Shown here: positions 10,499 through 31,817 of the stretch, piece after piece
Layout: each line of letters opens with the position of its first letter
Numbering within the stretch: position 1 is the first letter of the stretch
Assembly: GCF_014636865.1 (NCBI RefSeq)
Contig: NZ_BMER01000001.1
Coordinates: 186,001 to 250,000 of the forward strand
DNA from: Parapedobacter pyrenivorans
GTDB taxonomy: Bacteria > Bacteroidota > Bacteroidia > Sphingobacteriales > Sphingobacteriaceae
Direction: 5' to 3'
DNA length: 64,000 nucleotides
Position numbers and translations under genes: made by a program
Notes under the pieces: generated by a model
What the model saw: only the letters and a program-made list of their open reading frames with translations
Told to the model about the DNA's origin: nothing
Database searches by the model: none

Positions 10499-11857
10499 CT
10501 ATATCGCTTGCTTGATTTCCGATGCGTATTTGTGTATCCGTTTAATCGCCTCTGCAATCTGTTCCATGTCTCGCCGCATGCCAAGCAGCGTATTTTGCAT
10601 GAGCCAAACAGCCTGTTCACTGACCAGTATATCGTTTTGAGGACATTCGCTACTTTCTAACCATTGTTTCATCCGACGTTTGCCATAAATTTTCAGATAG
10701 TGTTTATTTGAAGCCAGCGCTTGTACATATTCACTTTTGTTCATTGGGCCGTATCCGCGTCCGCAGACTAGTCCTTCGGCGGCTAGGGCTCCAATGAATT
10801 GCTCACGATCCAATCCATCGAAATGTTCTTTGAGGTACCTAAACATAAAAATGTGGTAGGCACTCATCGTTGTTCCTTCGTAGAGCTTTGCCGGTACAAT
10901 GCCCGGAATATCTTTGAGCATACTATCCAAATACATAGCATTTTCATGTCTCCGTCGAGCTTGGTCTTCCAAGCGTGTCATCTGTGCCAACAACAAACTG
11001 CTTTGGAATTCCGTAATCCGCAAATTAGTCGACCGTGTGCCCACGCGATCGCGGTAAGATTTGTCTATGCCTTCCTGCACTTGATGATGGAATGATGTAC
11101 AAGCTCGAAAAAAATTGGGATCGTTCGTTACCACGGCCCCACCTTCACCACTATTGAGGTTCTTCGATGATTGAAAGCTGAATGCACCAGCCAGCCCATG
11201 ATTACCTACTTTACTCCCGCGCCATTCCGCCATATGCGCCTGGCATGCGTCTTCCACGATCGGTACCCCCGTTCGTTGGCTGATCTCCTTAAACTTATCC
11301 AAATCAACAGGTGTGCCGCCAAGATGTACAGGCATCATTGCTCGGGTATTTCTTGTTATAGCAGCATCTACTTTTGTGGCATCTATCTGCGACGACTCCA
11401 GATCGGTATCGACAAAAATCGGTAAGGCATGATTCAACACAACGACATTATAGGTAGCGATAAATGTATATACTGGAATAATCACTTCATCACCAGGCCC
11501 CACATCCAATGCGCCCATAATAGCTGTCAGCGCGGCCGTGCCACTTGAAACGCCTAACGCGTGATTCACACCCAACAAGTTAGCGTACTCCCGCTCGAAC
11601 TGTTGGGTGACACTTCCGGTCAACCTACCCCAACGGCTACTCTGCAGCACATCCAGCAACGCCTTCCCCTCTCGATTGTCGTAAATGGGCCAAGAGATTG
11701 CTGAGCCAGTATAGGCTTTCGTGCCCCCCAGTACTGCTGGTTTGCCATCGCCTAATGCACTGAATGACAACGTAGGCAGGCCGGCCAGTACCATACCGGA
11801 CCCAATCATTCCTGCATTCTTCAAAAATTCGCGTCGTTTCAATTTGTCATCCATCAT
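10499..11857 (-). CDS. Tat-exported DegT/DnrJ/EryC1/StrS-family PLP aminotransferase, copy 1
   Basis: 452 residues. A twin-arginine signal (KRREFLKNAGMIGSGMVLAG) opens the protein. The rest is a full DegT-fold enzyme: GVSSGTAALTA, PVYTFIATYN, VEDACQAHMAEW (PLP-nitrogen Asp near 203) and FSFQSSKNLNSGEGG with the Schiff-base Lys near 232. Family members transaminate keto sugars. Export of a folded PLP enzyme by Tat is consistent with pre-loading of cofactor, but a periplasmic sugar aminotransferase is unusual. By eye it is about nine-tenths identical to the copy at 26428-27789. It is paired with the ceramidase-like gene upstream. Confidence 0.87.
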   Translation of the reverse strand: MMDDKLKRREFLKNAGMIGSGMVLAGLPTLSFSALGDGKPAVLGGTKAYTGSAISWPIYDNREGKALLDVLQSSRWGRLTGSVTQQFEREYANLLGVNHALGVSSGTAALTAIMGALDVGPGDEVIIPVYTFIATYNVVVLNHALPIFVDTDLESSQIDATKVDAAITRNTRAMMPVHLGGTPVDLDKFKEISQRTGVPIVEDACQAHMAEWRGSKVGNHGLAGAFSFQSSKNLNSGEGGAVVTNDPNFFRACTSFHHQVQEGIDKSYRDRVGTRSTNLRITEFQSSLLLAQMTRLEDQARRRHENAMYLDSMLKDIPGIVPAKLYEGTTMSAYHIFMFRYLKEHFDGLDREQFIGALAAEGLVCGRGYGPMNKSEYVQALASNKHYLKIYGKRRMKQWLESSECPQNDILVSEQAVWLMQNTLLGMRRDMEQIAEAIKRIHKYASEIKQAI

Positions 11858-11991
11858 CTTGTTGTTAGTAATAATTCCAAAATTTTAAGCCTACCCATAT
11901 GTTCACAAACATCAAAAACACAGTCTGGAACCAGCAATATTGCATTAAACATGCATAAGAGTTTGTCCATGACGATAACCATCACGAAGTG

Positions 11992-13350
11992 CTATTTAAG
12001 CGATCGCTCCAGTTGGTCACACGCTTCATAAATCAGGGATTCGATAGCTGGATCCCATTTTGCAGGTAAGCCGTAAGCCCGTTGTGCCGAATCGCCCTCG
12101 TATCCTCCTTCATCGATGATTCGTGCAGTCGGTATATACCCCATTACATCATTATTATAGCCGAACACAAAAGCATCCCAACCATATTTCTCCTTCAGGC
12201 CCACAGCGTAGTCCACAACTACCTCTCCGGCCAAACCGAAAATCAGTTGTTCACCAAGCTTCCAAAGCTGCACGGGATAAGGATACGACGTATCCAAAGT
12301 CTCACCCCCTTGGATACGACCTATTAATCGGTTCGCCCACCGGGAGTAATAGCCGTGGTTTCCATCGCTCGTTACGACCGCCTGTAGGTCGGAAATAGAA
12401 GGCGAAGGTGAAAACGGCAGTGCGATTTCGCAGTACGTTGTCTGCAGAGTTGGCTGCAACAGTTTCATCTCATCAGTTTCAACAACGGCTTCCACAGCTG
12501 CCGCCAGCTCCTTGCCATACTGTCTGGCCAATGCCGTAGACCCCCGGGGCAAGGGGTTCTGGTCTCCTCCTGTGCCCTGGAAAAATAATGCTACCGCTCC
12601 TTCATAGACACGTTCGAGTTCCAGTTGGGCAAAACCCGGAAAATCACCGGACCATTCGTAGCCATCAAGCGTTGTCGGATGGCATGAATACGCGAAAAGT
12701 ACGGCTGCTATCCGGTCGTTTTTAACGACCTTCAAAACGGGGACCGCATGATCACTAGGCCCCTTGATTTCCGTCAACTTATGCAAATCCGCCGCACTAT
12801 TCTTGCGACGATTTACTTGGAAACGGGTTACTCCGATGCCTGAATAAAGGGTTGCCGCCTCCAAATCCATAAATGCATCAGCCACCACTTGGACAACACA
12901 CTCGCCCAACCATTGGGTATACCGATCGACTTTTGCTTGCTCGGCCGCGTCGAAGGAATACGCATCGATCAACGCACCGGTTAAGACCGGTCCCGAATGC
13001 GTATGAGAACTGTTTAACATGATATTGGCATCGGAAACACCAAAGCGTTCGCGAAGTTCCTGTTTGACGGACGACGAAAGTTCTTGAGTGAACCCAAGTA
13101 TATCCGCCGCAACCATAACTGCTTGGGCGCCCTGGGCGTCTTCAAGTACCACAGCCTTAGCCCACAATTCATGTTGCTTTCCTTCGGCAGGTTTCGTCCT
13201 TGCCGAAAACCCAGCCATCCACATGGTCTCTCCAGGTGTGATGACCGCTTTAGCAACCCCTACCTTCCAACCTGTTTCGGCAGATTTAGCAACTGTAAAC
13301 AAATCCGAAAGCATCAATGCCAACAAACAATAGAAAAAATAACGCAACAT
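11992..13350 (-). CDS. Secreted neutral/alkaline ceramidase-like hydrolase, copy 1
   Basis: 452 residues from ATG 13350; the longer frame from 13395 would add Asn-rich residues before the signal peptide. Ceramidase N-terminal-domain marks are VGVAKAVITPGETMWMAG, LNSSHTHSGPV, YSCHPTTLDGYEWSG and LAGEVVVDY, which supply plausible zinc-binding His/His/Glu positions. The family's nucleophile hexapeptide GDVSPN is replaced by GDQNPL, so the catalytic Ser is absent. It is therefore probably a metal-dependent hydrolase of another amide or ester rather than a true ceramidase. It lies between the Gfo-type oxidoreductase and DegT copy 1. Confidence 0.83.
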   Translation of the reverse strand: MLRYFFYCLLALMLSDLFTVAKSAETGWKVGVAKAVITPGETMWMAGFSARTKPAEGKQHELWAKAVVLEDAQGAQAVMVAADILGFTQELSSSVKQELRERFGVSDANIMLNSSHTHSGPVLTGALIDAYSFDAAEQAKVDRYTQWLGECVVQVVADAFMDLEAATLYSGIGVTRFQVNRRKNSAADLHKLTEIKGPSDHAVPVLKVVKNDRIAAVLFAYSCHPTTLDGYEWSGDFPGFAQLELERVYEGAVALFFQGTGGDQNPLPRGSTALARQYGKELAAAVEAVVETDEMKLLQPTLQTTYCEIALPFSPSPSISDLQAVVTSDGNHGYYSRWANRLIGRIQGGETLDTSYPYPVQLWKLGEQLIFGLAGEVVVDYAVGLKEKYGWDAFVFGYNNDVMGYIPTARIIDEGGYEGDSAQRAYGLPAKWDPAIESLIYEACDQLERSLK

Positions 13351-13442
13351 AATCTTACAATTATTTATCAGACAAGAATTATTGATGTTCAACAAATTGT
13401 GGCTTTGCCATCATCCATAAATATCTCATTTATCGATCTGCC

Positions 13443-14471
13443 TTAACCCTTTATGTCTGCCAGACTCACGGCATCACCACCCTTCGCACGACTTTGTTGT
13501 GCCGCCTCCATAAATGCCACTAATTCCAACGTTTCATCCGGATCTACGGGTGACACTCCGGTTGTAAAAAATTGGGCAACGTTTTCTAATAACTTCACGT
13601 AGCTGCCGCTTGTTCCCAATTCTGTGACACCATTTGCACCGAACGCTCGCCCGCCGAATACCGCTGGTCCACTCCGTAGTCCCCTGAATGATCCCAATCT
13701 CCCACCAGTCCACCTACCCACTACGATTTCGGCGTCTGGCAGGTATAGCCTTTGTACAGATTCACATCCTCTTCCCATTACTGCAAATAACATTTCGACA
13801 CCATGGATTGCATACCAGAATAAATCAGGATGGGAAGGCTCAATAAACGCCGGGCTATACGTTTCTGCACCAAGGACATCCCCAATTTCTCCATTTATCA
13901 CTTGTTCCACATTGAGTGCATATCGCAACGAGGAAGTAGAAAATACGGGGACGTCTAGCCGATCCGACTCCTCAAAAATCGCCCAAGCATCGGCATAAGA
14001 GGCAGCGATTGGTTTATCAATAAATAACGGCAGACGCGACTGAATCACTTCCTTAGCCTGTTGGAGGTGGAGTCGCCCATCATTAGTCTCTAATAAAATC
14101 ACATCCACTTTGCGCAGTAATTTGGCAATCGAGTCCACGATTTCGACTCCTATATTTTTCATCTGCTCGGTAATTGCCGGTATTCGTTCAACACTCGTTT
14201 TGACCGTTTGGCTCCCGTATGGATACGCCGCCACCACCCGATACCCCTGAAATGCTGGATTTGGGTCAGAAGCATTCAACAATTCCGTGAATGCAATGCT
14301 GTGAGAGGTATCCAAACCGATGATTCCAACTCGCTTACCACGCTCAACCCAACGACTATACGCCCGATGGCCGGTCGCGGGGATGCAAATCCTTGTCGCT
14401 GTCGAGATAACAGCCATCTTCCTAATGAATGCTCTTCTTCCCAACATGGTCAATATGTTTTGTTTATGCAA
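13443..14471 (-). CDS. Tat-exported Gfo/Idh/MocA-family oxidoreductase
   Basis: 342 residues. The N-terminus RRAFIRKMAVISTATRIC has a twin-arginine pattern. It is followed by a Rossmann start KRVGIIGLDTSHSIAFTELL, a deviant form of the usual GxGxxG dinucleotide motif. Further marks are PLFIDKPIAASYADAW (the EKP-like block, here DKP) and the C-terminal substrate domain. Such proteins oxidise or reduce sugar hydroxyls with tightly bound NAD(P), which suits folded export by Tat. It may supply the keto sugar used by the neighbouring DegT enzyme or DUF1080 hydrolase (inference). ATG at 14447 is an alternative start. Confidence 0.78.
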   Translation of the reverse strand: MHKQNILTMLGRRAFIRKMAVISTATRICIPATGHRAYSRWVERGKRVGIIGLDTSHSIAFTELLNASDPNPAFQGYRVVAAYPYGSQTVKTSVERIPAITEQMKNIGVEIVDSIAKLLRKVDVILLETNDGRLHLQQAKEVIQSRLPLFIDKPIAASYADAWAIFEESDRLDVPVFSTSSLRYALNVEQVINGEIGDVLGAETYSPAFIEPSHPDLFWYAIHGVEMLFAVMGRGCESVQRLYLPDAEIVVGRWTGGRLGSFRGLRSGPAVFGGRAFGANGVTELGTSGSYVKLLENVAQFFTTGVSPVDPDETLELVAFMEAAQQSRAKGGDAVSLADIKG

Positions 14472-14555
14472 AAAGGCCGATTTACTTGAATACGAGAAAT
14501 AAAAAATAGAGACACCAGCATATAATGGTAAAACATATGAATCATATTAATTAAT

Positions 14556-15988: not shown

Positions 15989-17170
15989 TCAACGATTGGG
16001 GTTCTGGCCCCAAAGGGTGATTTCATGTAACAATATATTCTCCGAGCCACCCCATGTTTTGATGGTTTTAAATCGGATGTACCGGTAGGTATCGGTTTCC
16101 AGTGGAAAATCATACTCTTCGCCGGCTACAGCATAAGCCGTATCTTCGTTGGTGAAGGCCGTTCCCGGAAGGCCGGATGGCTTGATGGATTCCGCTTGTA
16201 GTAGCAGCGTCCAATTGTCCCAGCCACCATCTGCCGGTGGATCATTGCTACCCCAGATCTCGAACGTTTTGGGGTTCCCCAATCCATACTGGTAACCAAA
16301 GGTATATTGATTGACCTTCATCCTGCTGATTTTTAGCGGCTTCCTTAAATCAACGGTGAAATGGTTAGGCAGTGGCGGAGTAGGGATGTTACCGATAAAG
16401 TAATCCACATTGGCTAAAGAGCCGTCCCACAATTTATCCAGCGTCAGTCCATATGCGCCTTCCCAGGCGTCACCAGGCAAATGCAAGGCTAGCCAATCTT
16501 TTTCGAACTGCTCTTCGTAATAGGGTGTAAGCATTAATTTCAATGTATCAGATAGGTTTTCCCACTTGTCAGCGAGCACAAATGCGAACTCCATCTCTTC
16601 CGGTTCCAATCCCCGTACGGAGTAATTACGGTATTTCGCTTTGGTATAAAGGCGATCGTAGACGGTCCATGCACCTTGATCATCCTTGAGAAGCGTGTAT
16701 AAGATGTACTCATTTTCCGGATCGTTAAAGACTTGAACGTTCACCCCGCCGAAATCCTCCCGTATCTGCAAGGAGTCAAAGACGGTACTGATTGGTGCTG
16801 TCAACGGCTTGATGGTCGCACTTACCGGATTTGATTTGACTTCCGACCGATTCACAGAATACAAATCGATCTGATATTCACCCTCGACGGCAAATCCCTC
16901 CAACTCCACGAAGTTTTTATATAACGAAGACTTTACCGTCCGTTTCTCCCCGGATTCATGCGACGCAAATACGGCTTCCACATACGAGAAATCCTTATCA
17001 GGAGGCAACGTATACGAAATCCTGGCTCCGCCCGGGAGATTTTCGACCTGAATATTCTGCACCGGATTTGGTTTACCATCAGTAGTAACCAGCGGTGTAT
17101 TTTCCAATTCATTACACCCTGATACTGTCAATAATATCACGATGGAAAAAGCAAGAAACTGTTTCATCAT
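15989..17170 (-). CDS. DUF4959/DUF5000-type surface lipoprotein with discoidin-like C-terminus
   Basis: 393 residues from MMKQFLAF at 17170; the longer frame from 17185 overlaps the SusD stop and has no signal-like start. The lipobox is LTVSGCNE. Fibronectin-like strands (VENLPGGARISYTLP) form the N-terminal DUF4959-like part. The C-terminal 150 residues (MKVNQYTFGYQYG, FEIWGSNDPPADGGWDNW, YRYIRFKTIKTWGG) form a galactose-binding/discoidin fold as in DUF5000. These are typical accessory glycan-binding lipoproteins encoded next to SusD. It begins 8 bp after the SusD stop. Confidence 0.82.
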   Translation of the reverse strand: MMKQFLAFSIVILLTVSGCNELENTPLVTTDGKPNPVQNIQVENLPGGARISYTLPPDKDFSYVEAVFASHESGEKRTVKSSLYKNFVELEGFAVEGEYQIDLYSVNRSEVKSNPVSATIKPLTAPISTVFDSLQIREDFGGVNVQVFNDPENEYILYTLLKDDQGAWTVYDRLYTKAKYRNYSVRGLEPEEMEFAFVLADKWENLSDTLKLMLTPYYEEQFEKDWLALHLPGDAWEGAYGLTLDKLWDGSLANVDYFIGNIPTPPLPNHFTVDLRKPLKISRMKVNQYTFGYQYGLGNPKTFEIWGSNDPPADGGWDNWTLLLQAESIKPSGLPGTAFTNEDTAYAVAGEEYDFPLETDTYRYIRFKTIKTWGGSENILLHEITLWGQNPNR

Positions 17171-17178
17171 TCTAAGAA

Positions 17179-19068
17179 TTACCAACCCAAGGTTTGCACC
17201 AGGTTTTTATTAACAATCAAATCATATTCACTAATCGGCCAAAAATAATTTTTCAGTGTAAACTCCTGCCTGAACAGAATTTTCTCCCGATAATATGACT
17301 GTTCGAGTTCCTGATCGACGTCCCACCCCGTAACTGGCGAATTATAAACCTCGACCGCAGACTTCCATCGCCTCAGGTCGAAAAACCGGCTCCCTTCAAG
17401 CGCTGTTTCCACCCCCCGCTCCTGCTGGATGATTTCCCTGAGGCCGGCTTGGGTTGCAAATTTTGTTGGAAGCCGCGAATGGTTGGACCATGATTCCACA
17501 ACGCCTTTCAGACCAGCTCTTTGCCGTATGTAATCCAGGTACTCGTATACTTCGTCGCTCGGACCGTAAGCTTCGTTCATCGCTTCGGCATGCAACAGGT
17601 AAAGATCTCCCAACCTGAGCATGATCCAAGGATAGGGTTGTACCGTATATACATTCCCGGTGACGGTCATGATATTTGAGTAATGGACATACTTTTTCGT
17701 AAAGTAGCCGGAGAGTGGATGCACCCAGGCTCCCCGTTTCCCCTGCGTCTGTCCTACTTTCTGCCGGATATACCATGAATCATTGTCATCGAATTTTCCG
17801 TTGCCGTACCATATTCCGCCGTCAAAACCAAACGTGGCATAAAAACGTGGCTCCCTATCAAAATTATACTCCGCTGTCGTATACCCTTCTTTGATGAAAT
17901 ACTTTTCGACCTCTTTACCAACCCGGAGGTTAAACCTGTTTGTATAGTTCCAATCCAAATCTTCATTGATGGGCACCCCATTTTTTGTGTAAAATAAGTT
18001 TGTCACCCTAAACGGAACACCCAGGGTACCCACCGGTATGGAGTTATTTAATGCATCGGGATCAAGCCCAGCGGGCGTCGACAAGTGTTGCAACGTAACG
18101 GACTGTGTATTCGTATTCGCCCATATGACTTCGCTATTCCACCGCTCGGTAAACATGTTGCGTATGTTCATTTTGAGCTTCGTCTCTTCGGAGAGGTTCC
18201 GTGCTTGATTGGTTTCCTGAAATTCGTACAGGCTGTAGCCTAGTCGATGGCATAATTCAATTGCGGCCTTGGTCGCCTCCGCTGCTTTTTCCCATTTTTC
18301 CAGGCTATACTCGGTATTGAACAGTGGTGTCCCATCTTTATTGGTATATCCCGCAAAATCCGAATTGCCGTTAAATAACGGACTAGCTGCATAAACCAGT
18401 ACTTTTGCTTTCAATCCCGCGGCGATAGGTAATGTAATCCGGCCCAGTTCGGAATTTTGGTTCTGTACCTGCTCGGGGAGTAACAGCAATGCCTCGTCCA
18501 GTAGCTCCACGATGTATTCGACGACTTCATCGACAGGTTGGCGCGTTACCCGCACTTCCTCAGGCGTGGCCGATATCGGAATATTCTCGCGAACAATGGG
18601 AACGGGCCCATACATCGTCAACAGAAAGAAATGATAATAGGCCTTCAGAAATTTAACTTCGCCGATCCAACTGTCGCGTTCGCGAGGCAGGAGATCAGGT
18701 ACATGGTCCACGTTGTCCAGAAAAATGTTACATTCCCTGAGTGCCCGGTACATGGTGGGCCAGAAATTCATCAACGGCGCATTCGTATTCTGTAACCCCC
18801 GGGCTACATGCCAGGAGGGGATGTTGTTTGGAAAACTGGGCCATAGCCATTCATCCCCCGCAGAGAGTACAGAGTTGTTGTAATCTGTATAGTTCGGAAC
18901 GAAAGAATAGCAGGTGAACAGATACCGCTCGGCGGTATTCCGCATTTGGAAGGCGTGTTCGATAGTCGCTACATTATCGGGTACCAAATCCAGGTACTTA
19001 TCGCAGGATAAGGTCGTCCCCGTAAGCAGCAATACCAAAGCAAATTTATAAGCTGATAACTTTTTCAT
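17179..19068 (-). CDS. SusD/RagB-family outer-membrane nutrient-binding lipoprotein
   Basis: 629 residues from MKKLSAYKF at 19068; ATG at 19092 would add eight residues before the signal peptide. The lipobox is TTLSCDKYLD. The SusD signature regions are FLKAYYHFFLLTMYGPVPIV (about 145-165), KAKVLVYAASPLFNG in the TPR helices, and the terminal RFFDLRRWKSAVEVYNSPV with ENYFWPISEYDL-like closure. It sits as a lid on the SusC channel encoded just upstream and captures oligosaccharide. The start is 10 bp after the SusC stop. Confidence 0.95.
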   Translation of the reverse strand: MKKLSAYKFALVLLLTGTTLSCDKYLDLVPDNVATIEHAFQMRNTAERYLFTCYSFVPNYTDYNNSVLSAGDEWLWPSFPNNIPSWHVARGLQNTNAPLMNFWPTMYRALRECNIFLDNVDHVPDLLPRERDSWIGEVKFLKAYYHFFLLTMYGPVPIVRENIPISATPEEVRVTRQPVDEVVEYIVELLDEALLLLPEQVQNQNSELGRITLPIAAGLKAKVLVYAASPLFNGNSDFAGYTNKDGTPLFNTEYSLEKWEKAAEATKAAIELCHRLGYSLYEFQETNQARNLSEETKLKMNIRNMFTERWNSEVIWANTNTQSVTLQHLSTPAGLDPDALNNSIPVGTLGVPFRVTNLFYTKNGVPINEDLDWNYTNRFNLRVGKEVEKYFIKEGYTTAEYNFDREPRFYATFGFDGGIWYGNGKFDDNDSWYIRQKVGQTQGKRGAWVHPLSGYFTKKYVHYSNIMTVTGNVYTVQPYPWIMLRLGDLYLLHAEAMNEAYGPSDEVYEYLDYIRQRAGLKGVVESWSNHSRLPTKFATQAGLREIIQQERGVETALEGSRFFDLRRWKSAVEVYNSPVTGWDVDQELEQSYYREKILFRQEFTLKNYFWPISEYDLIVNKNLVQTLGW

Positions 19069-19078
19069 GATTGTCTGA

Positions 19079-22445: not shown

Positions 22446-23585
22446 TCAGCCCGAATCGACACGCCGTTCCCGAGATGGCAGTTCACTACCGAGATGAAAC
22501 ACGTGCCGAAGGTTAAAATCAGCATCAAAGACGATGATATTGGCTAGGAATCCTGCAGCAATTTTGCCTGCATTGTCGATGCCAGCCATGCGAGCCGGAT
22601 ACAACGAAGCCATCCTGAGCGCCTCATCTAATGGTATATTGGCAAACCTAACGCAGTTGGCTACCGATTCAAGCTGGCTGAGCGATGTACCTGATAGCGT
22701 GCCATCAGCGAGCGTAAAGCGATCGCCCTTAAATATATAGTCGTAAACCCCATTGGATGCCGCCGCGATGGCATCGGTAATCAAAAACAACCGGTCCCCG
22801 AGTATCCGCTTTGAAATCTCCAACACCTGGTAATCCACATGAATGCCATCAGCAATTATTCCGGCTTGTGCATGGTTGGAAAGAAAGGTGGCTCCGGGCA
22901 AACCGGGTTCCCTGTGATGCAACGGCGACATTCCGTTGAATAGGTGTGTAACTGCTTTCACCCCGCTGGTGAAACTTTGCATTGCTTGTTGCGCGGTTGC
23001 GTTGCTATGTCCAGCTGAAAGCAATACGCCGTGATCCAGCAGCAAGTTGATGCATTTCTCATCGAACAATTCCGGAGCAATGGTCATCATCTTCAACCAT
23101 CCTTCAGCAAATTGCAACGTCTGTTCGATCTCTTGGTAGTCGGGCTTACGGAGATAAGCTGGCGGGTGGGCACCGCGCTTTTCCGGATTGAGATACGGCC
23201 CCTCGAAATGCAAGCCCAGCAGTGCAGGATGCGCTTCCTGCTTCACACAGCTCAACGCGCTTTGGTAGACCGCTGGTGTATTGGTAGCCAGGGTAAGCAT
23301 AAAACCTGTTGTTCCGGAGGCCACGATGCTATCGCCGATGGTCCGCAACGTATCCGTACGGGTATCGGCAGCAAACAAATGCCCGCCTGCACCATAGATC
23401 TGTAGATCAATCAATCCCGGTGCGACGACACCACCTCCTGCATCCACAATCCTTACGTTTTCCGGAAGTTCGCTGGGGTGCAAAATCGCCTCGATCCGAT
23501 TACCTTCAATCAGTATCGCTTGATCAGCGAGAATCGCCTCACCCGTATAGATCCGTCCATTAACAATTGCTACTTGGTTGTCCAT
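22446..23585 (-). CDS. nagA: N-acetylglucosamine-6-phosphate deacetylase
   Basis: 379 residues from MDNQVAIV at 23585. Amidohydrolase signatures are APGLIDLQIYGAGG, LGLHFEGPYLNPEKRGAHPP (metal-site Glu), VTHLFNGMSPLHHREPG and LITDAIAAA (catalytic Asp). It deacetylates GlcNAc-6-phosphate to glucosamine-6-phosphate in the cytoplasm, the step after MurQ. No glucosamine-6-phosphate deaminase (NagB) gene is visible in the window, so that step must be encoded elsewhere. The upstream frame from 23603 (MIRKAA) is a less likely start. Confidence 0.93.
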   Translation of the reverse strand: MDNQVAIVNGRIYTGEAILADQAILIEGNRIEAILHPSELPENVRIVDAGGGVVAPGLIDLQIYGAGGHLFAADTRTDTLRTIGDSIVASGTTGFMLTLATNTPAVYQSALSCVKQEAHPALLGLHFEGPYLNPEKRGAHPPAYLRKPDYQEIEQTLQFAEGWLKMMTIAPELFDEKCINLLLDHGVLLSAGHSNATAQQAMQSFTSGVKAVTHLFNGMSPLHHREPGLPGATFLSNHAQAGIIADGIHVDYQVLEISKRILGDRLFLITDAIAAASNGVYDYIFKGDRFTLADGTLSGTSLSQLESVANCVRFANIPLDEALRMASLYPARMAGIDNAGKIAAGFLANIIVFDADFNLRHVFHLGSELPSRERRVDSG

Positions 23586-23612
23586 AGCTGCTTTGCGAAT
23601 CAATTCACGTTA

Positions 23613-25559
23613 TTACCTATTTTTCGATTTAATCGAATCGATGATTACCTCATGTACCTGCTCAGGAAAGCTACTTGGCTGGCTGTACCAGAAGAACGAA
23701 TCGTCGCCTTCGTAGATCTTCGCTTTTATGTGCCTACTGGTGGGAAGGTAACTGGATACATCATTGCAATATCCGGCTATGGTTACCAGTTGGTCGGGCC
23801 ACAGCTTTTTAATCGCCAGGCTATATTCGGTCGTCGTCTCCCGAGATACTCCAACCAGTTTCCAATTGCCAATATTGATAGTCTGGATAAACACCGGCAT
23901 CTCGCTTGGCATGTTCCCGTTGGCATAATACGACAACATGAGATTTGCCCAACGTACACGCTCCTCCGCATAGATATCCCCTACCAGCTTTTCCTTTTCC
24001 GCTTTCAACGCTAGGAGGTCTTGTTTAGCCCACGGTCGGGTCGGAAAACTCACGGTGTCCAAAAAACAAGTGATATCGCCATGGACCCTTGTCATGCGAT
24101 CCTTTTCCAACACTTCGATCACCGCGTCGGCAACCTTTTTTCCAGTCACGTTATGGTCTGCGTCGACTGGATTGATATCACCGCCACATCCTTGCAAGAA
24201 AAAAGGATTCCTGATTGCTGAATGATGAGCGAGAAGCTCTCTCGCAGTTCCTGGATAGTTCGCACTGATTTTATAGAATTCCTCTTCCTTGGCATTGAAC
24301 ACTGGATGGCACCCTGCAAGAAACAGCACATCCGAGGCCTGTTGGTTCTTATAGTCGATCCTAATCACATCCAAATCTTTATCATACGGCAGGTTATCAC
24401 CCGGCAGATTCCGGTTGCGGCCGATATCCGCAGTGCCTCGTCCGAAAAACAGGTTCGCGTCTTTCGCACCTTTTATAGCCAACCGCACCGAATTCAGAAT
24501 CCCCTCTTTTACCGTCGTATACAGGTATAGGCTATCCGGCCGTTGGCAATGTTCTCCCCATGTCGTCCATCGCTGCGTTACCGGTGCGTAATGCGTATGC
24601 GACGCGTTGATCAAGATCGCCGAAGCGGGTATATGATATTTTAGGAACAACTCACTTTTAACACCCGTTACAAAATCGGCATCAAAACCACAGACATCCA
24701 AGCCTATCAGAATTGCCCGTTCTTTACCTTTTTTGATAAAAACAGCCCCAGCCTTCAGGTTACCGTCTGAGTAATGCGTACCCCGGTAATACGAGCCGGA
24801 TGCGTCGAACCCGTGTAGTACGTCATTGCTAACGGCCACTTTATGGATGTCGTGCCGGTAGTTTTTATCGTTTTTAATTGCAATCCGCAACCAGTTACCA
24901 CTCGGCTCAAAATAAGCCAGCTCATTATTATCCGTAAGCCCGTATAACCGGCCCGAATGTACAACCAAATCAATAACACCGGCTAGGTTTCCGATCCGCG
25001 CCCAAGATGAGTTTCCACCAGCTTGCGCTGACCTCCATATTCCACCTTGATCATCCGCTGCAATGATATCTTTTCCAAAAATAACCAGGGCGACAGGGCG
25101 ATCGACGTCTGCCATTAAACCGATCTTCCTCCATTTTAGCTTCTTTCCCAGCGTCGCAGTCAGTATCTCGCCACGGTTATTTACAGTATACAGTCGCTTT
25201 CCTTCTGCAGCCAAAAGCGTAATATCGCTATCAAATGTAAGCTGCTTCAGCTTATTCCCTTCCGCGGGGTTATCTATTCTCCAAACGTCTCCACTCCTCA
25301 GTACGAACGGTTTTGAGTCAATAAATACGACATCATCAATACCCGTAGCTAGACGACCTGAATCTTCCCACTTGAGTGTAAATCGCCCATCTCTAGGTCC
25401 GCCGTACCCTGCCAGTGACAACGAAAGCACATTGCGTTGAGGTTCCAAACTTACCTGTCCGCTACCTACACTGAAATCGAAATGCTGGGCAGTCAAGGCC
25501 AACGGAAAAATCCCCAGGGCTAAAAGAACATAAATGGATATACTGGAAATCACTTTCAT
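23613..25559 (-). CDS. Secreted ceramidase-like hydrolase with an inserted beta-propeller, copy 2
   Basis: 648 residues with a signal peptide ending near ALTAQ. Ceramidase-like parts are split. Residues about 28-60 (FSVGSGQVSLEPQ, LSLAGYGGPRDGRF) match the opening of the domain. Residues about 270-648 continue it (ILIGLDVCGFD, INASHTHYAPV, LAGCHPVF, LQGCGGDINPVD). Between them lie about 210 residues of short propeller-like blades (DDQGGIWRSAQAGG, LYGLTDNNELAYFEPSGNW). The nucleophile hexapeptide GDVSPN reads GDINPV, so the Ser is missing. Its stop is 28 bp before the NagA start and its start overlaps the MurQ stop by 4 bp. Confidence 0.8.
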   Translation of the reverse strand: MKVISSISIYVLLALGIFPLALTAQHFDFSVGSGQVSLEPQRNVLSLSLAGYGGPRDGRFTLKWEDSGRLATGIDDVVFIDSKPFVLRSGDVWRIDNPAEGNKLKQLTFDSDITLLAAEGKRLYTVNNRGEILTATLGKKLKWRKIGLMADVDRPVALVIFGKDIIAADDQGGIWRSAQAGGNSSWARIGNLAGVIDLVVHSGRLYGLTDNNELAYFEPSGNWLRIAIKNDKNYRHDIHKVAVSNDVLHGFDASGSYYRGTHYSDGNLKAGAVFIKKGKERAILIGLDVCGFDADFVTGVKSELFLKYHIPASAILINASHTHYAPVTQRWTTWGEHCQRPDSLYLYTTVKEGILNSVRLAIKGAKDANLFFGRGTADIGRNRNLPGDNLPYDKDLDVIRIDYKNQQASDVLFLAGCHPVFNAKEEEFYKISANYPGTARELLAHHSAIRNPFFLQGCGGDINPVDADHNVTGKKVADAVIEVLEKDRMTRVHGDITCFLDTVSFPTRPWAKQDLLALKAEKEKLVGDIYAEERVRWANLMLSYYANGNMPSEMPVFIQTINIGNWKLVGVSRETTTEYSLAIKKLWPDQLVTIAGYCNDVSSYLPTSRHIKAKIYEGDDSFFWYSQPSSFPEQVHEVIIDSIKSKNR

Positions 25560-26404
25560 AATTCAGGAGTAAAATCGACCGACGATGTTTCACTTGAAGC
25601 TAGCGCATCCAACGCTTTTCTTACGCTTCCATTTTGCAGCAAAATCCGCTTTGCTTCCCCGTAATCGGCTATATTGGATTTATCGACAAGCATCCGAACC
25701 GCCCTGTCTACCGCCTTATCATTAATCAATGCCATATTCACCATGCTATTGTCTTCCACTCTCCCCAAGCAAATCATTGTGGTGGTACTGATCATGTCAA
25801 AAATCATTTTTTGCGCAGACCCACTTTTCATACGCGTGCTTCCGGTAATAAATTCGGGTCCTGTCACAACCTCTACGGGATAATCTGCCTGTTCGGCAAT
25901 CGGAGATTCCGGATTGCTTACGATACAGCCCGTCGTGATTCCGTGATTACGGCACGCTTTCAATGCTTCCAGAACAAATGGTGTCGTCCCGCTCGCTGCA
26001 ATTCCTACAACGACATCTGCAGGGCTTATTCCTGCTTCCCTCAAATTGGCCCAACCTTCCTTGGTATCATCTTCCCGTTCCTCCTTCGCTTCCACCAAGT
26101 GTTCCACGCCACCGGCTAATATGACATTTACCTTGCCCTTGGGTATGCCAAACGTATTGGGCAGCTCAATGACGTCCAATACCGATAAGCGTCCCCCGCT
26201 CCCTGCGCCCACGTAAAACAACCTTCCTCCGGTCTTGAGTTTTTCAACGATAACTCCAATAAGCTTACTAAGTTGCGGTAAGGCCTCCTTGATTTTCAAT
26301 GCGACCTTCTGATCCTCTTGGTTAATCCAACTGATCAATGTGTCAATATCCTGCTGCTCCAGGTTTCGGTAATGTGACGGACTTTCAGTGACTCTAATAT
26401 TCAT
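25556..26404 (-). CDS. murQ: N-acetylmuramic acid 6-phosphate etherase
   Basis: 282 residues of normal MurQ length and layout: TESPSHYRNLEQQDIDTLIS start, SIS-fold motif FYVGAGSGGRLSVLDVIELP, GIAASGTTPFVLEAL and ITGSTRMKSGSAQKMIFDM. It cleaves the D-lactyl ether of MurNAc-6-phosphate to give GlcNAc-6-phosphate, which NagA then deacetylates. Together with the BadF-type kinase and the sugar permease it mirrors the MurT-MurK-MurQ MurNAc salvage set of Tannerella. Its stop overlaps the start of the ceramidase-like gene by 4 bp. Confidence 0.95.
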   Translation of the reverse strand: MNIRVTESPSHYRNLEQQDIDTLISWINQEDQKVALKIKEALPQLSKLIGVIVEKLKTGGRLFYVGAGSGGRLSVLDVIELPNTFGIPKGKVNVILAGGVEHLVEAKEEREDDTKEGWANLREAGISPADVVVGIAASGTTPFVLEALKACRNHGITTGCIVSNPESPIAEQADYPVEVVTGPEFITGSTRMKSGSAQKMIFDMISTTTMICLGRVEDNSMVNMALINDKAVDRAVRMLVDKSNIADYGEAKRILLQNGSVRKALDALASSETSSVDFTPEL

Positions 26405-26427: not shown

Positions 26428-27789
26428 TTATATTGCCTTCTTAATTTCCGATGCGTATTGCTGTATCCGCTTAACGGCTTCCGCAATCTGTTCCATATCT
26501 CTACGTGTTCCCAGCAACATATTCTGCATAAACCACGCTGCTTGTTCACCGGTCAGGATATCATTCTGCGGGCATTCGTTACGTTCCAGCCATTGCTTCA
26601 TCCGGCGTTTACCGTAGATTTTCAAGTAATGCTTATTCGTGGCTAACGCCTGTACATATTCACTCTTGTTCATCGGGCCATATCCAGGTGAGCAGGCAAG
26701 GCCCTCGGCCGCCAATGCCTTGATAAACTGGTCGCGGCTCAGCCCGTCAAAATGCTCCTTAAGGTATCTGAACATGTAAATATGATAAGCACTCCGGGTA
26801 GTCCCCTCATATAGTTTCGCCGGCACGATACCGGGGATATCCTTCAACATGCTATCGAGGTACAGCGCATTCTCCTGCCTACGGCGCACCTGGTCTTCCA
26901 ATCGCGTCATCTGCGCGAGCAATAGACTGCTCTGGAATTCGGTAATTCTCAGGTTGGTAGACCGGGTGCCAACGCGATCGCGATATGACTTATCAATCCC
27001 TTCCTGTACCTGATGATGGAATGAAGTGCACGCCCTGAAAAAGTTGGCATCATTGGTTACCACCGCGCCCCCTTCACCGCAGTTGAGGTTTTTGGACGAT
27101 TGAAAACTGAACGCGCCAGCCAAGCCATGGTTCCCCACCTTCTTCCCCCGAAACTCCGCCATGTGGGCCTGGCATGCATCCTCCACAATCGGGATGCCCG
27201 TACGCTGGCTGATTTCCGCAAACTTATCGAGATCAACAGGTGTACCGCCGAGATGAACCGGCATCATTGCCCGCGTATTCCCCGTAATCGCTGCATCTAC
27301 CTTGGTTGCATCAATCTGAGAGGATTCCAAATCCGTATCTACAAAAATCGGCAAGGCGTGATTAAGCACCACAACATTGTAAGTAGCGATAAACGTATAC
27401 ACCGGGATAATCACTTCATCACCTGGCCCCACATCTAGCGCACCCATGATGGCAGTAAGTGCCGATGTGCCGCTGGATACGCCCAATGCGTGGCCGACCC
27501 CCAACAATTCAGCATATTCCCGCTCGAACTGGGCAGTCACGCTTCCTGTCAGTCTTCCCCATTGGCTACTATTAAGTACGCTTTGCAAAGCTTGTCCTTC
27601 CCGGTTGTCATAAATAGGCCAAGAGATGACACTCCCGGTATAAGCTTTCTGTCCGCCTAACACGGCCGGCTTACCGTCGTGCCAGGAACCGAGTGAAAAC
27701 TTGGGAATACCGCTTAACGCAATACCAGACCCTACCATACCTACACGATGTAGAAAATCACGCCTTTTCAATTTACTGTCCATAATCAT
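26428..27789 (-). CDS. Tat-exported DegT/DnrJ/EryC1/StrS-family PLP aminotransferase, copy 2
   Basis: 453 residues with the twin-arginine signal KRRDFLHRVGMVGSGIALSG. All catalytic elements of the family are kept: IVEDACQAHMAEF (Asp near 204) and FSFQSSKNLNCGEGG with the PLP Lys near 233. It is almost identical to copy 1 through the central domain and differs mostly in the signal region. It is the first gene of the long leftward transcription unit, 23 bp before MurQ, with a -7 box at 27999-28006. ATG at 27783 is an alternative start matching copy 1. Confidence 0.87.
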   Translation of the reverse strand: MIMDSKLKRRDFLHRVGMVGSGIALSGIPKFSLGSWHDGKPAVLGGQKAYTGSVISWPIYDNREGQALQSVLNSSQWGRLTGSVTAQFEREYAELLGVGHALGVSSGTSALTAIMGALDVGPGDEVIIPVYTFIATYNVVVLNHALPIFVDTDLESSQIDATKVDAAITGNTRAMMPVHLGGTPVDLDKFAEISQRTGIPIVEDACQAHMAEFRGKKVGNHGLAGAFSFQSSKNLNCGEGGAVVTNDANFFRACTSFHHQVQEGIDKSYRDRVGTRSTNLRITEFQSSLLLAQMTRLEDQVRRRQENALYLDSMLKDIPGIVPAKLYEGTTRSAYHIYMFRYLKEHFDGLSRDQFIKALAAEGLACSPGYGPMNKSEYVQALATNKHYLKIYGKRRMKQWLERNECPQNDILTGEQAAWFMQNMLLGTRRDMEQIAEAVKRIQQYASEIKKAI

Positions 27790-27957: not shown

Positions 27958-27989
27958 TATTAAACGCAAATAATATTTTATTAAACGCA
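27958..27989. promoter_or_regulatory. Direct repeat TATTAAACGCA x2, candidate operator
   Basis: Two exact copies of TATTAAACGCA start 21 bp apart (two helical turns), just downstream of the minus-strand -7 box of the DegT copy 2 unit. A related AAACGCAATAATA occurs at 31925-31937 in the intergenic region before the DeoR-family gene; the first copy here continues as AAACGCAAATAATA. The placement suits a repressor site, and the DeoR-family protein is the obvious candidate. Confidence 0.4.
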
Positions 27990-27998
27990 TTTAAACAG

Positions 27999-28006
27999 CA
28001 AAAATA
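27999..28006 (-). promoter_or_regulatory. Putative -7 promoter box for the leftward amino-sugar locus
   Basis: The minus strand reads TATTTTTG, matching the Bacteroidota -7 consensus TAnnTTTG. It lies about 210 bp before DegT copy 2 and would leave a long leader containing the repeated TATTAAACGCA motif. No clear -33 TTTG is seen. Confidence 0.45.
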
Positions 28007-28094
28007 GAGTTTACATACGGTTAACTTCCCGCCGTTAAAACACGCATATCACAACGAAAAGCATAATAATAAACCTAAAATTAATATTTTGCAT

Positions 28095-28102
28095 TATATT
28101 TG
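28095..28102 (+). promoter_or_regulatory. Putative -7 promoter box for the 3-hydroxyacyl-CoA dehydrogenase-like gene
   Basis: TATATTTG fits TAnnTTTG. It lies 74 bp before the start codon, giving a leader of roughly 65 nt that includes the 28124-28150 hairpin. Confidence 0.5.
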
Positions 28103-28123
28103 CACAAACCATACAGCCGTAAC

Positions 28124-28150
28124 GCGCAACCTTGTTATTGGCCGTTGCGC
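28124..28150 (+). other. GC-rich hairpin in the leader of the dehydrogenase gene
   Basis: GCGCAAC at 28124-28130 pairs with GTTGCGC at 28144-28150 across a 13-nt loop. It falls between the predicted transcription start and the ATG at 28176, so it could affect translation or message stability. There is no T-run after it, so it is not a terminator. Confidence 0.4.
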
Positions 28151-28175
28151 AGTGTTATAAACTAATTTAGAAGAG

Positions 28176-29060
28176 ATGGATACCGTTTTTAAAATAAAAA
28201 GAATCACCGTTTTAGGTGCAGGAACGATGGGACAAACCATTGCCTATTTATTTTCAGAAAATGGAATACCGACCACACTTTACGATGCCGACAATCGCGT
28301 CATAGACGATATGATCAGTAAACGAGGGCTCCACGAAAATTTAAAGTTAACGAAGCGCTTGGAAACGGCGGTTTCGGAATCTGATTTAATTGTTGAATCG
28401 GTGCCGGAAATCTTCAATATAAAACGGGAAGTTTTTTTAACTATCGCACCGCATGTAAAGCAACATGCCATTATCGCATCCAATACATCGTCTTTCCCTT
28501 TGCATGTTTTATCGGAGGGTCTTCCGTTTTCTCAGCGCATGATGTTGATCCATTTCTTTAATCCGGCAGACCTTATTCCTCTTGTCGAACTGGTAAAACC
28601 AGCAGCGATGGCCGATGCTATCGTAAACGACCTGATTAGCCTACTGAAGACTTGTGGAAAGGTTCCTGTTTTGCTGAAACGCGACATCAACGGATTCATC
28701 GCCAACAGGCTCCAAGCCGCATTGCTGAGAGAGGCCTGCAACTTGCTGCAACAGGGAGTTGCGGAAGTGAGCGATATCGACACCGTTGTAAAACAGAGCA
28801 TCGGACTGCGGTGGGCACTGAATGGACCATTCGAGATTACTGACTTAGGCGGCCTGGATGTATGGGAGAAAGTGCTGACGAATATTTTGCCGGATCTGGA
28901 CAATACAACCAGTGTTCCGCTTTCCATAAATCAACTTGTCAATAACAATAACCTGGGATTGAAAACAAACAAAGGCTTTTACGACTACCCCCAATCCGCG
29001 TCAAATCAAGCGGTTTTACAGCGCGAAAAATTGGCCCGGTTACTGAAGGACATCAAATGA
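28176..29060 (+). CDS. 3-hydroxyacyl-CoA dehydrogenase-family protein
   Basis: 294 residues. The NAD site is ITVLGAGTMGQTIAYLFSE; the substrate and catalytic blocks are ASNTSSFPLHVL (Ser), MLIHFFNPADLIPLVELV (His) and DINGFIANRLQ (Asn). The C-terminal helical domain (GPFEITDLGGLDVWEKVL) is complete. Homologues oxidise 3-hydroxybutyryl-CoA or, in the lambda-crystallin branch, L-gulonate and related hydroxy acids. The sequence alone does not decide between them. It is an isolated rightward gene between leftward sugar genes, with its own promoter, and ends 7 bp from the convergent ceramidase-like gene. Confidence 0.82.
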   Translation: MDTVFKIKRITVLGAGTMGQTIAYLFSENGIPTTLYDADNRVIDDMISKRGLHENLKLTKRLETAVSESDLIVESVPEIFNIKREVFLTIAPHVKQHAIIASNTSSFPLHVLSEGLPFSQRMMLIHFFNPADLIPLVELVKPAAMADAIVNDLISLLKTCGKVPVLLKRDINGFIANRLQAALLREACNLLQQGVAEVSDIDTVVKQSIGLRWALNGPFEITDLGGLDVWEKVLTNILPDLDNTTSVPLSINQLVNNNNLGLKTNKGFYDYPQSASNQAVLQREKLARLLKDIK

Positions 29061-29067
29061 CTACACC

Positions 29068-30435: not shown

Positions 30436-30446
30436 GGGTTGAAAAT

Positions 30447-31817
30447 CTAATTAGTAGGTAGTGATTTGACAATATCGGCGGCATTGTGGTGTATCCGACC
30501 GATAGCCATTGCTATTTCGTCCATGTCCGTTCGAGGGCCGAGCAGCATATTCTGCGTTAACCAAACCGCCTCCTCACACAGTTTATCATTCAACGGACAT
30601 TGATTTTTTTCCGTGAAAGACTGAAAATCAACATCCTTACCAGGATATAGCTGCTGAAACAAGGGTGAATTGAACGATGCTTGGATAAACGGTTGCGTGT
30701 TCAGCGGCACATACCCCCCCGAGCAGGGCACCCCCTCAGCACGGAGCGCCGTCAGAAAGCTATCCCTTGACAGCCCTGAAAAGCCACTCGGGTCGTAGCG
30801 GAATGGGAAAAGGTGAAACGCACCTTTATCTACCTTCGGATATAACTGATACGGGGTAATACCGGGAATTTCGCTTATCATCGCAGCAAGGTACGTCGCA
30901 TTACTATGCCGGACATCCGTTTCCTCCTGCAGCCGCTCCAGCATCACTAAACCGATGGCAGCCTGGTATTCCGTAAACCGAAGCTTGCTTCCTAACATCC
31001 CGGTATCCAACGGATTAAAGCTTCCTGCCGGTAATCCGTAACTGTGATACGAACTACACCGGTCCATGAATAATTGATCGTTGCTTGTAATCGCTCCGCC
31101 TTCGCCTATCGGGAGGTTCTTGGAATTCTGGAAACTGAAACATCCAGCATGGCCGATACTCCCCACTTTGCGACCACCGTATTCCGCCAAATGGGCTTGA
31201 CAAGCATCTTCAATCACCAGAAGCTTATGCTGCTTCGCAATGGCCATGATGGCATCCATATCTGCCGGTAATCCCAGGATGTGCACGGGCAGGATGGCCT
31301 TGGTCTTGCTGGTAATCTTGGCAGCCATTTTCCGGGGATCTATCTGGAATGTGGCCGGGTCTACATCCACAAAAACGGGCATGGCCCCATTAAATAGGAT
31401 AGCAGATACGGTGGCGATAAAGGTATATGGAGGCACCAAAACTTCATCGCCGGGACCGATTCCGAAACTATTGATCGCCGTTGCGAGCGCATTTGTTCCG
31501 TTCACAACCGCCAGCGACCGGTCCGTACCGACCATAGCGGCCCATTTCTGCTCGAACTCTGCAGTTGTCCGTCCACGCGACCACACTCCGCTGCGCACTA
31601 CTTCGAGCAATCGGCGCTCATCCGTTTCAGGATTCCAACGTGGCCATTGAGGCCATTGCTTATCGGACCAAATCGACCGACCGCCTAAAATAGCAGGCTT
31701 ACTGCTGCTGGAGGAATTACTACTAAACGTTGATAACGGAGACGCCATCACGGTCGCACCAAGCAATGCACCTGTTCTGAGAAAGTCCCGCCGTCCATTA
31801 TTCTTCTGCGTGTCCAT
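30447..31817 (-). CDS. Tat-exported DegT/DnrJ/EryC1/StrS-family PLP aminotransferase, copy 3
   Basis: 456 residues from MDTQKNNGRRDFLRTG at 31817; the frame from 31829 only adds MIVY. The twin-arginine signal is followed by a Ser-rich linker and a complete DegT fold: LAVVNGTNALATAINSFG, PPYTFIATVSAI, IEDACQAHLAEY and FSFQNSKNLPIGEGG with the PLP Lys. It is more divergent than copies 1 and 2, sharing roughly half its residues by eye. It heads a two-gene unit with ceramidase-like copy 3. Confidence 0.86.
   Translation of the reverse strand: MDTQKNNGRRDFLRTGALLGATVMASPLSTFSSNSSSSSKPAILGGRSIWSDKQWPQWPRWNPETDERRLLEVVRSGVWSRGRTTAEFEQKWAAMVGTDRSLAVVNGTNALATAINSFGIGPGDEVLVPPYTFIATVSAILFNGAMPVFVDVDPATFQIDPRKMAAKITSKTKAILPVHILGLPADMDAIMAIAKQHKLLVIEDACQAHLAEYGGRKVGSIGHAGCFSFQNSKNLPIGEGGAITSNDQLFMDRCSSYHSYGLPAGSFNPLDTGMLGSKLRFTEYQAAIGLVMLERLQEETDVRHSNATYLAAMISEIPGITPYQLYPKVDKGAFHLFPFRYDPSGFSGLSRDSFLTALRAEGVPCSGGYVPLNTQPFIQASFNSPLFQQLYPGKDVDFQSFTEKNQCPLNDKLCEEAVWLTQNMLLGPRTDMDEIAMAIGRIHHNAADIVKSLPTN

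Follow-up and report, generated by a model that had tools for sequence, protein, structure and literature searches.

Exported-type DegT enzymes paired with ceramidase-fold hydrolases in Parapedobacter pyrenivorans: a candidate extracytoplasmic amino-sugar module

Why would a bacterium provide sugar aminotransferase-like enzymes with signals of the twin-arginine translocation (Tat) type, and why would these enzymes be encoded beside ceramidase-like hydrolases? The question arises from a stretch of 64,000 nucleotides of Parapedobacter pyrenivorans (contig NZ_BMER01000001.1, positions 186,001 to 250,000; here called the window), in which three genes of the DegT/DnrJ/EryC1/StrS family of pyridoxal phosphate (PLP) enzymes (DegT1 to DegT3) accompany three genes for ceramidase-fold hydrolases (CER1 to CER3). 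Genes of these two kinds are associated above chance in the samples used. The interpretation that we prefer, at a probability of roughly 0.4, is that the three pairs represent a conserved extracytoplasmic amino-sugar module in polysaccharide utilisation loci.

A preliminary description of the window had listed these six open reading frames (ORFs), and all of them are present on the minus strand, four with the start positions given there. The DegT3 frame runs from 31829, 31817 being an internal Met, and the CER1 frame has a TTG at 13395 compared to the Met at 13350; both differences are trivial. As had been described, each DegT gene adjoins a gene for a ceramidase-fold hydrolase or lies one gene away from it, judging from the gene order and the PF04734 matches:

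10499..11857, minus strand, DegT1, DegT/DnrJ/EryC1/StrS PLP enzyme with Tat-type signal, 452 amino acids (PF01041)
11992..13395, minus strand, CER1, ceramidase-fold hydrolase, 467 amino acids from the TTG (Met at 13350), Sec-type N-terminus by eye (PF04734)
23613..25559, minus strand, CER2, 648 amino acids, Sec-type N-terminus by eye; N-terminal half weakly propeller-like, C-terminal half of ceramidase fold, both Pfam matches under the cut-off
26428..27789, minus strand, DegT2, Tat-type DegT PLP enzyme, 453 amino acids
29068..30435, minus strand, CER3, ceramidase-fold hydrolase, 455 amino acids, Sec-type N-terminus by eye
30447..31829, minus strand, DegT3, Tat-type DegT PLP enzyme of a second subclade, 460 amino acids

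The association across genomes

A CER gene occurs within 5 kb of the DegT gene in 32 of the 58 rows of the exported DegT clade compared to 3 of the 40 other rows (Fisher p 5.6e-7). Conservation of the pairing in other genomes was the test that the preliminary description had set for itself, and the pairing is conserved: counted by locus with six-frame ORFs over all 80 loci, a CER gene lies within 5 kb in 21 of the 39 high-scoring and 4 of the 41 other loci (p 2.6e-5). When the count is restricted to loci whose sequence spans 20 kb or more, the occurrence is 14 out of 23 compared to 1 out of 21.

These loci are the best 80 of the 585 DegT loci from a scan of 84,980 species genomes. The label “exported” corresponds to a line at 480 bits that was set by us, and L060, L073 and the truncated L085 fall below this line yet have Tat-like N-termini, whereas the RR matches at L091 and L100 in the 80-locus count look false by eye. 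One must keep in mind that the DegT profile (A1) includes the signal columns, so that the score and the Tat label are not fully independent. A greedy ORF calling lost the DegT ORF in ten of the 80 loci (L055, L060, L069, L073, L085, L091, L097, L100, L105 and L113); the tree and the counts of twin-arginine motifs, partner genes and pair distances rest on the loci minus these ten, which the 80-locus CER count restores. The 98-row tree is also without L005-L034 and L115-L121, which are duplicates or have short flanks, or in the case of L005 carry a cytosolic DegT.

The 32 DegT-CER pairs, with 31 distinct CER genes, are on the same strand in 29 cases and within 300 bp of each other in 22, and the CER gene is the downstream one in 26. 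The distances between DegT sequences correlate with those between their partner CER sequences (Mantel r 0.52, a value reached in 0 of 5000 permutations), with close relatives among the rows.

A similar picture emerges from two further samples. Among 61 genomes from the family of P. pyrenivorans, 7 contain exported-type DegTs, 16 in total, with scores of 563-800 bits, the next match having 240 bits. PF04734 is present in 12 of the 61, among them 6 of the 7 with an exported DegT, and a PF04734 match lies within 12 kb of 13 and within 5 kb of 11 of the 16 exported DegTs. For 296 genomes of the phylum the searches scored only the best few candidates per genome, so that all counts are lower bounds: an exported DegT is found in at least 5 (E at most 1e-100) and PF04734 in at least 17, and all 5 carry both. 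At the thresholds used a highly conserved propeller-like family of approximately 450 amino acids without a convincing Pfam match was detected in the same 5 (again at least) and in none of the other genomes. In Petrimonas sp. IBARAKI a stretch of about 11 kb holds the propeller gene and two CER genes in addition to three exported-type DegTs.

We therefore rejected chance neighbourhood as an explanation, in view of the enrichment of CER genes, the close same-strand pairs with correlated divergence and the concordance with the propeller. A related explanation would be that these are ordinary DegTs with misleading N-termini, found near PF04734 genes since both are common in polysaccharide loci. 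It could draw on the numerous PF04734-like genes of the P. pyrenivorans genome (10 were aligned), some of them far from any exported DegT. We regard it as most improbable, as it would have to accommodate a single clade in which 57 of the 58 rows have a Tat motif, a distance below 300 bp with correlated divergence in 22 out of 32 pairs, and the propeller concordance in the 296 genomes.

The exported DegT enzymes and the ceramidase-fold hydrolases

DegT1 to DegT3 belong to the DegT family with 289.6, 298.6 and 324.9 bits against PF01041 (cut-off 19.8). The twin-arginine signals attributed to them before are borne out by reading the N-termini by eye: the motifs KRREFLK, KRRDFLH and GRRDFLR are each followed by a hydrophobic stretch and are close to the consensus S/T-R-R-X-F-L-K given in PMC3383694. 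As the genome also has one match to TatC, motif and hydropathy suggest that the three enzymes are exported by Tat. The PLP-binding residues are kept, as had been claimed. All six exported-type paralogues that the genome encodes have the residues corresponding to Lys233 and Asp204 of DegT2, and these align with a Lys and an Asp of 3-amino-5-hydroxybenzoate (AHBA) synthase 1b9h.

The three enzymes had been introduced as three copies. Three DegTs are indeed present, of which DegT1 and DegT2 stem from a recent duplication and share 87% identity, whereas DegT3 is 41% identical to both and belongs to a separate subclade. Since DegT1 and DegT2 are so similar yet stand beside different types of CER, DegT1 looks like a recent copy that was set next to another hydrolase. 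The nearest relative of DegT2 among the best 80 of the 585 loci is found in Parapedobacter defluvii (64% identity).

The 58 high-scoring rows form one clade (SH-like approximate likelihood ratio test 99) with no other row inside when 98 DegT sequences are placed in a quick maximum-likelihood tree. It spans Bacteroidota, Verrucomicrobiota, Planctomycetota and Acidobacteriota in addition to one contig labelled Arcobacter. A twin-arginine motif with a hydrophobic stretch occurs in 57 of the 58 rows, the exception being cut by a contig end, compared to 5 of the 40 other rows. Two DegTs with an RR motif lie outside this main clade (L112:1409-3376 and L089:1235-2581). As the one in L112 overlaps a CER gene, the combination of export with a CER partner may have evolved repeatedly. 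In L038 (4971-6473) the DegT frame opens with an apparent CER C-terminal end in frame and continues with a Tat-type start, which could be an overlap, a frameshift or a fusion.

The curated NCBIfam cut-offs for nucleotide-sugar aminotransferases (ArnB, PseC, WecE and others) are not reached: none of the families listed (for two of the three DegTs the best 25) passed, the scores being at most 203.9 bits compared to 423.5 for PseC. Among solved structures the exported DegT profile is matched best by 2-deoxy-scyllo-inosose aminotransferases, followed by 8gyh and AHBA synthase, with the nucleotide-sugar enzymes behind. This ranking fits a compartment without nucleotide sugars. The 2-deoxy-scyllo-inosose and scyllo-inosose aminotransferases and AHBA synthase (5w71, 2c7t, 7b0d, 1b9h) are cytosolic biosynthetic enzymes; while they are among the best solved relatives, with PLP Lys and Asp aligned for 1b9h, the exported DegTs form a clade of their own among the 98 rows and stand in sugar-catabolic loci.

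The assignment of the hydrolases follows from several observations. CER1 (67.8 bits) and CER3 (60.2 bits) exceed the PF04734 cut-off of 32.1 bits, and CER2 with 28.0 bits remains below it and keeps all 14 positions that are invariant in 20 CER relatives. These positions include His118, His120, His227, Glu379, Tyr408 and Tyr420 of CER3. In the Pseudomonas neutral ceramidase 2zws the counterparts of the three histidines are chain positions 97, 99 and 204, and Glu379 aligns with position 411 in a weak second segment (all hand-counted); 97, 204 and 411 we take to be zinc ligands. An AlphaFold2 model of CER3 (predicted local distance difference test, pLDDT, 92.4) retrieves neutral ceramidases with Foldseek at E 7.5e-30 and 2.9e-27, and all four matches better than E 0.001 are neutral ceramidases. 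Most likely the CER proteins act as zinc-dependent amidases that are exported by a Sec-type signal.

The likeness to neutral ceramidase (2zws, 4wgk) thus concerns the fold and the residues of the zinc site. The solved enzymes have approximately 630-690 amino acids compared to 455-467 in CER1 and CER3, and the NCBIfam equivalog for neutral ceramidase is far from being reached (CER1 29.1 bits compared to a cut-off of 1200, CER2 and CER3 without a match). As the neighbours are moreover sugar-catabolic genes, the breakdown of long-chain ceramides is not favoured as a role.

CER-like genes occur in other settings as well. In L006 (7471-14195) of the same genome two of them stand beside genes that by eye resemble those for a D-amino-acid enzyme and a dipeptidase, which suggests that amides of other kinds are also substrates of this fold. 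Some CER-like proteins are shorter, have no obvious signal and are located near sodium-symporter-like genes (L007:7866-9092, L139:4783-6030, L140:6146-7384; by eye), and the clusters in L007 and L140 also hold N-acylglucosamine-2-epimerase-like genes, again by eye.

The putative operon and its recurrent partner genes

From DegT2 to DegT1 (27789 to 10499) eleven genes share one orientation, in the order DegT2, MurQ2, CER2, NagA, SusC, SusD, two probable glycan-binding proteins, Gfo/Idh/MocA, CER1 and DegT1. No gap between them exceeds 134 bp, three of them overlap the next gene, and they may be co-transcribed. The spacing is 134 bp between DegT1 and CER1, 23 bp between DegT2 and MurQ2 and 11 bp between CER3 and DegT3, and MurQ2 and CER2 overlap by 4 bp. 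DegT3 and CER3 form a second unit. A plus-strand gene of the dehydrogenase type sets it apart, and a DeoR regulator stands at its head in divergent orientation. Beyond DegT1 follow a deacetylase, a DUF7133-cytochrome c protein, a 221-amino-acid protein without a clear match, two GDSL esterases, a transporter of the major facilitator superfamily (MFS), a BadF-like protein and a member of the 3-keto-disaccharide hydrolase family. A promoter and terminator scan of 9500-29400 stayed near the level of shuffled sequences (26 compared to 30.5 and 22 compared to 18.8, respectively) and was not used. The genes around the DegT and CER genes are:

878..1654, minus strand, 3-keto-disaccharide hydrolase family (PF06439/DUF1080)
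1681..2529, minus strand, BadF/BadG-like protein, possible amino-sugar kinase (23.1 bits, under the 31.5 cut-off)
2526..3839, minus strand, MFS transporter
5969..8953, minus strand, protein with DUF7133, HEAT and cytochrome c domains, lipoprotein-like N-terminus by eye
8978..10246, minus strand, polysaccharide deacetylase (PF01522), probable accessory
13443..14471, minus strand, Gfo/Idh/MocA enzyme, Tat-type, “GIIGLDTSHS” subfamily, 342 amino acids
14556..15953, minus strand, probable surface glycan-binding protein, DUF4998 and Tachylectin
15989..17185, minus strand, probable surface glycan-binding protein, DUF4959-DUF5126-DUF5000
17179..19092, minus strand, SusD-like protein
19079..22366, minus strand, SusC-like TonB-dependent transporter, plug and CarboxypepD_reg-like domain matches
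22446..23603, minus strand, NagA, N-acetylglucosamine-6-phosphate deacetylase (TIGR00221 319.5 bits, cut-off 225.65)
25556..26404, minus strand, MurQ2, divergent SIS protein resembling N-acetylmuramic acid 6-phosphate (MurNAc-6-phosphate) etherase
28176..29060, plus strand, 3-hydroxyacyl-CoA dehydrogenase-type gene (PF02737/PF00725) between the two DegT units, no role seen
32296..33099, plus strand, DeoR-type regulator, divergent from DegT3

The adjacent SusC and SusD genes (19079-22366 and 17179-19092) mark the region as a polysaccharide utilisation locus, and together with NagA and NagB they point to amino-sugar polysaccharides. For the occurrence of partner genes we compared 53 exported-DegT loci with 34 control loci; the ORFs around the DegT genes are partly unnamed, and the statements on partners cover the named families. 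NagB was found in 7, NagA in 6 and MurQ in 7 of the 53 loci and none of them in the controls. DUF7133 genes occur in 13 of the 53 and 0 of the 34 loci, DeoR genes in 6 and the SDR/epimerase-type family PF01370 in 4 of the 53.

MurQ2 reaches 314.0 bits against the subfamily model NF003915 (cut-off 168) and stays with 256.6 bits below the cut-off of 302 of the equivalog TIGR00274, against which the canonical copies were not scored. In the 61 family genomes two classes are separated: 68 canonical copies with 358-394 bits in 59 genomes, and eight MurQ2 copies with 301-319 bits (the window, 25556-26404, and L001, L035, L122, L124, L139, L140 and L141). The eight share GAGSGGRL[SA]VLDxIELPxT; the four canonical copies read have GAGTSGRLG[VI]LDASECPPT, so that the ASECPPT found in all four is replaced by VIELPNT in the window. 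Two glutamates, presumably catalytic, appear kept in MurQ2. These features suggest that it acts on an amino-sugar phosphate other than ordinary MurNAc-6-phosphate.

An exported-type DegT adjoins five of the eight MurQ2 genes, and a PF04734 match lies within 5 kb of five. None lies within 20 kb of the 68 canonical genes (nearest 26 kb), a test by PF04734 positions in which 17 copies are in genomes with any match and 51 in genomes with none. With a more sensitive CER profile a CER gene is near seven of the eight MurQ2 and absent from the four canonical stretches read. As two of these seven are without a DegT, MurQ2 is tied to CER at least as well as to DegT.

A MurQ-like gene could also be an argument for the scavenging of peptidoglycan, with CER as a muropeptide (lactyl-alanine) amidase, MurQ2 as etherase and DegT handling the keto or amino compound that is released. 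The presence of MurQ-like, NagA, kinase-like and MFS genes in one same-strand stretch and the 4 bp overlap of CER2 and MurQ2 would be in agreement with this. However, the separate score class and the changed motif of MurQ2 make a different substrate likelier, and there is no lysozyme or peptidase among the named partner families, the unnamed ORFs not being annotated. We thus consider peptidoglycan scavenging distinctly unlikely; canonical peptidoglycan recycling is likewise weakened by the separate MurQ2 class.

The preliminary description had named a Tat-type Gfo/Idh/MocA enzyme as a partner. This subfamily is recurrent (15 of 53 exported-DegT loci, 0 of 34 controls), but a twin-arginine motif is confined to 11 of the 16 members, the other 5 looking Sec-type (L040, L041, L057, L058 and L066). 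A looser Gfo family shows no such preference, since it occurs in 11 of 34 controls and in 11 of 53 exported-DegT loci. The propeller family is again present in 15 of the 53 loci and 0 of the 34 controls. It occurs in 5 of the 61 family genomes, all among the 7 with an exported DegT (G039 and G057 lack it), and in the genome of the window it stands beside the sixth exported-type DegT (L004:8177-9532); further copies are in L040, L041, L047, L049, L051, L052, L054, L058 and L062. Its model has a moderate pLDDT of 76.5 and finds only generic beta-propellers, YncE first, so no catalytic role is claimed. The preliminary description had missed this partner, which lies outside the window, as well as the divergence of the MurQ paralogue and the split of the DegTs into two subclades.

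A rarer neighbour is a protein of approximately 400 amino acids with a Sec-like N-terminus and three RidA domains (each of the two that were scanned has three PF01042 matches). Its gene immediately precedes DegT in L047 (8524-9726), L052 (8619-9821) and L126 (7410-8606) and is about 6 kb away in L046 (17737-18891). It could hint at a DegT that works as a PLP-dependent eliminase: after formation of an aldimine with a free C2 amine the C2 proton would be lost and the C3 substituent expelled, and the exported RidA protein would hydrolyse the enamine or imine. The partnership with MurQ2, a relative of the enzyme that eliminates the C3 lactyl ether, is compatible with such chemistry. RidA, however, occurs in only 4 of 53 loci, three of which belong to one DegT subclade and none of which has a CER within 5 kb of DegT. 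Moreover, ColD-type dehydratases have a His in place of the catalytic Lys, which the exported DegTs keep. Elimination is therefore improbable in our view.

A possible route for amino sugars outside the cytoplasm

The module would operate as follows. The DegT enzymes would enclose PLP as they fold in the cytosol and then be exported by Tat, and the CER proteins would leave by a Sec-type signal and work as zinc-dependent amidases. SusC and SusD could bring in an oligosaccharide that contains amino sugars, from which CER would take off the N-acyl group and free the amine. The exported DegT might then convert the bared ring amine to a ketone (or perform the reverse on a keto sugar), and the exported Gfo/Idh/MocA enzyme might reduce the carbonyl to a hydroxyl. 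Finally, the MFS transporter would take the product in, and the kinase, MurQ2, NagA and NagB could pass it on to glucosamine-6-phosphate.

That an exported PLP sugar aminotransferase works together with CER in amino-sugar catabolism is the part which we hold to be fairly probable. The order of deacylation before deamination is a tentative proposal, and any particular ring position would be unlikely to prove right. Since a MurQ-like gene and NagA in the putative operon, with NagB elsewhere, belong to families of amino-sugar breakdown, the sequence deacylate, deaminate, reduce is favoured over the order of the preliminary description.

In that order, the exported Gfo/Idh/MocA enzyme would oxidise a sugar, DegT would aminate it with an amino acid as donor and CER would act on another bond. 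Cytosolic pairs of Gfo/Idh/MocA and DegT enzymes convert a ring position between hydroxyl, ketone and amine, and in biosynthesis they make 3-amino sugars. The parallels are NtdC/NtdA (kanosamine), GnnA/GnnB and WbpB/WbpE, in which the same two enzyme families act in sequence on a ring keto or amino carbon; these are cytosolic and biosynthetic, and their substrates are activated by phosphate or a nucleotide. The DegT profile finds NtdA and WbpE, and PF01370 in 4 of 53 loci would suit a biosynthetic direction. So would the 3-keto-glycoside hydrolase family gene of the window, such enzymes being proposed as periplasmic in PMC9007349. The recurrent named partners are, however, mostly catabolic (SusC and SusD, NagA, NagB, MurQ2, transporters), with many ORFs unnamed, and we consider this direction unlikely.

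The periplasmic 3-keto-glycoside pathway (LacABC and DUF1080; BT2157) resembles the proposed module in the extracytoplasmic oxidation of a sugar, and the window has a gene of its DUF1080/PF06439 family (878-1654); the available part of PMC9007349 describes the pathway without an aminotransferase or a ceramidase-fold enzyme. The window contains a DUF1080 gene and a Tat-type Gfo gene, which would have to supply the hydrolase and the sugar 3-oxidase of such a pathway. For the Tat route there is a precedent in two pseudomonad PLP enzymes that are exported with their cofactor: according to PMC6206403, PvdN needs cytosolic PLP binding before Tat export, and PtaA, a periplasmic transaminase, is exported likewise. 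The loading of the cofactor before export would explain why the DegTs take this route. PvdN and PtaA act on a glutamate residue of pyoverdine and, unlike the DegTs, are not of the DegT sugar aminotransferase type.

Several points weigh against the extracytoplasmic amino-sugar module. Eighteen of the 39 high-scoring loci, some on short contigs, are without a CER within 5 kb, hence DegT can apparently work alone. NagA, NagB or MurQ genes occur in only 15 of the 53 exported-DegT loci (0 of 34 controls), and MurQ2 is accompanied by CER without DegT in L139 and L140 and by neither in the stretch of L141. In the Gfo partner the dinucleotide motif is changed (GIIGLD), and no solved structure is closely related to it (best E 0.05). 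Moreover, 5 of the 16 members appear to leave by Sec, a route on which a protein is unfolded and carries no bound cofactor, so that a redox role of this partner is an assumption. The module would also require a periplasmic amino acceptor or donor. The control loci are mostly from other phyla, so that the absence of SusC, SusD and similar genes there is uninformative. Finally, the Tat signals are read from motif and hydropathy, and the functions are predicted from the sequence.

The enzyme families and Tat-exported PLP enzymes are known, and the combination and its setting appear to be new. In agreement with the preliminary description, which knew of no such pathway, the matches listed in the open-access literature contain no description of an exported DegT or of its pairing with a ceramidase. 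In a wider and speculative picture, a pathway in at least four phyla would break down N-acylated amino sugars by reversing the biosynthetic logic of Gfo/Idh/MocA and DegT outside the cytoplasm, with CER as sugar N-deacylases, the propeller as a near-constant partner and a neofunctionalised MurQ paralogue taking the product, and several DegT-CER pairs might serve different amine positions or acyl groups.

If the extracytoplasmic module is real, sugar transamination, which is usually deemed cytosolic and nucleotide-linked, would also occur outside the cytoplasm on free glycans. The “ceramidase” genes of environmental bacteria, which are probably not ceramidases, would gain a function, as would a MurQ paralogue annotated as a peptidoglycan-recycling enzyme and a propeller family without a Pfam name. 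The module could thereby show how bacteria use unusual N-acylated amino sugars from the envelopes or polysaccharides of other microbes.

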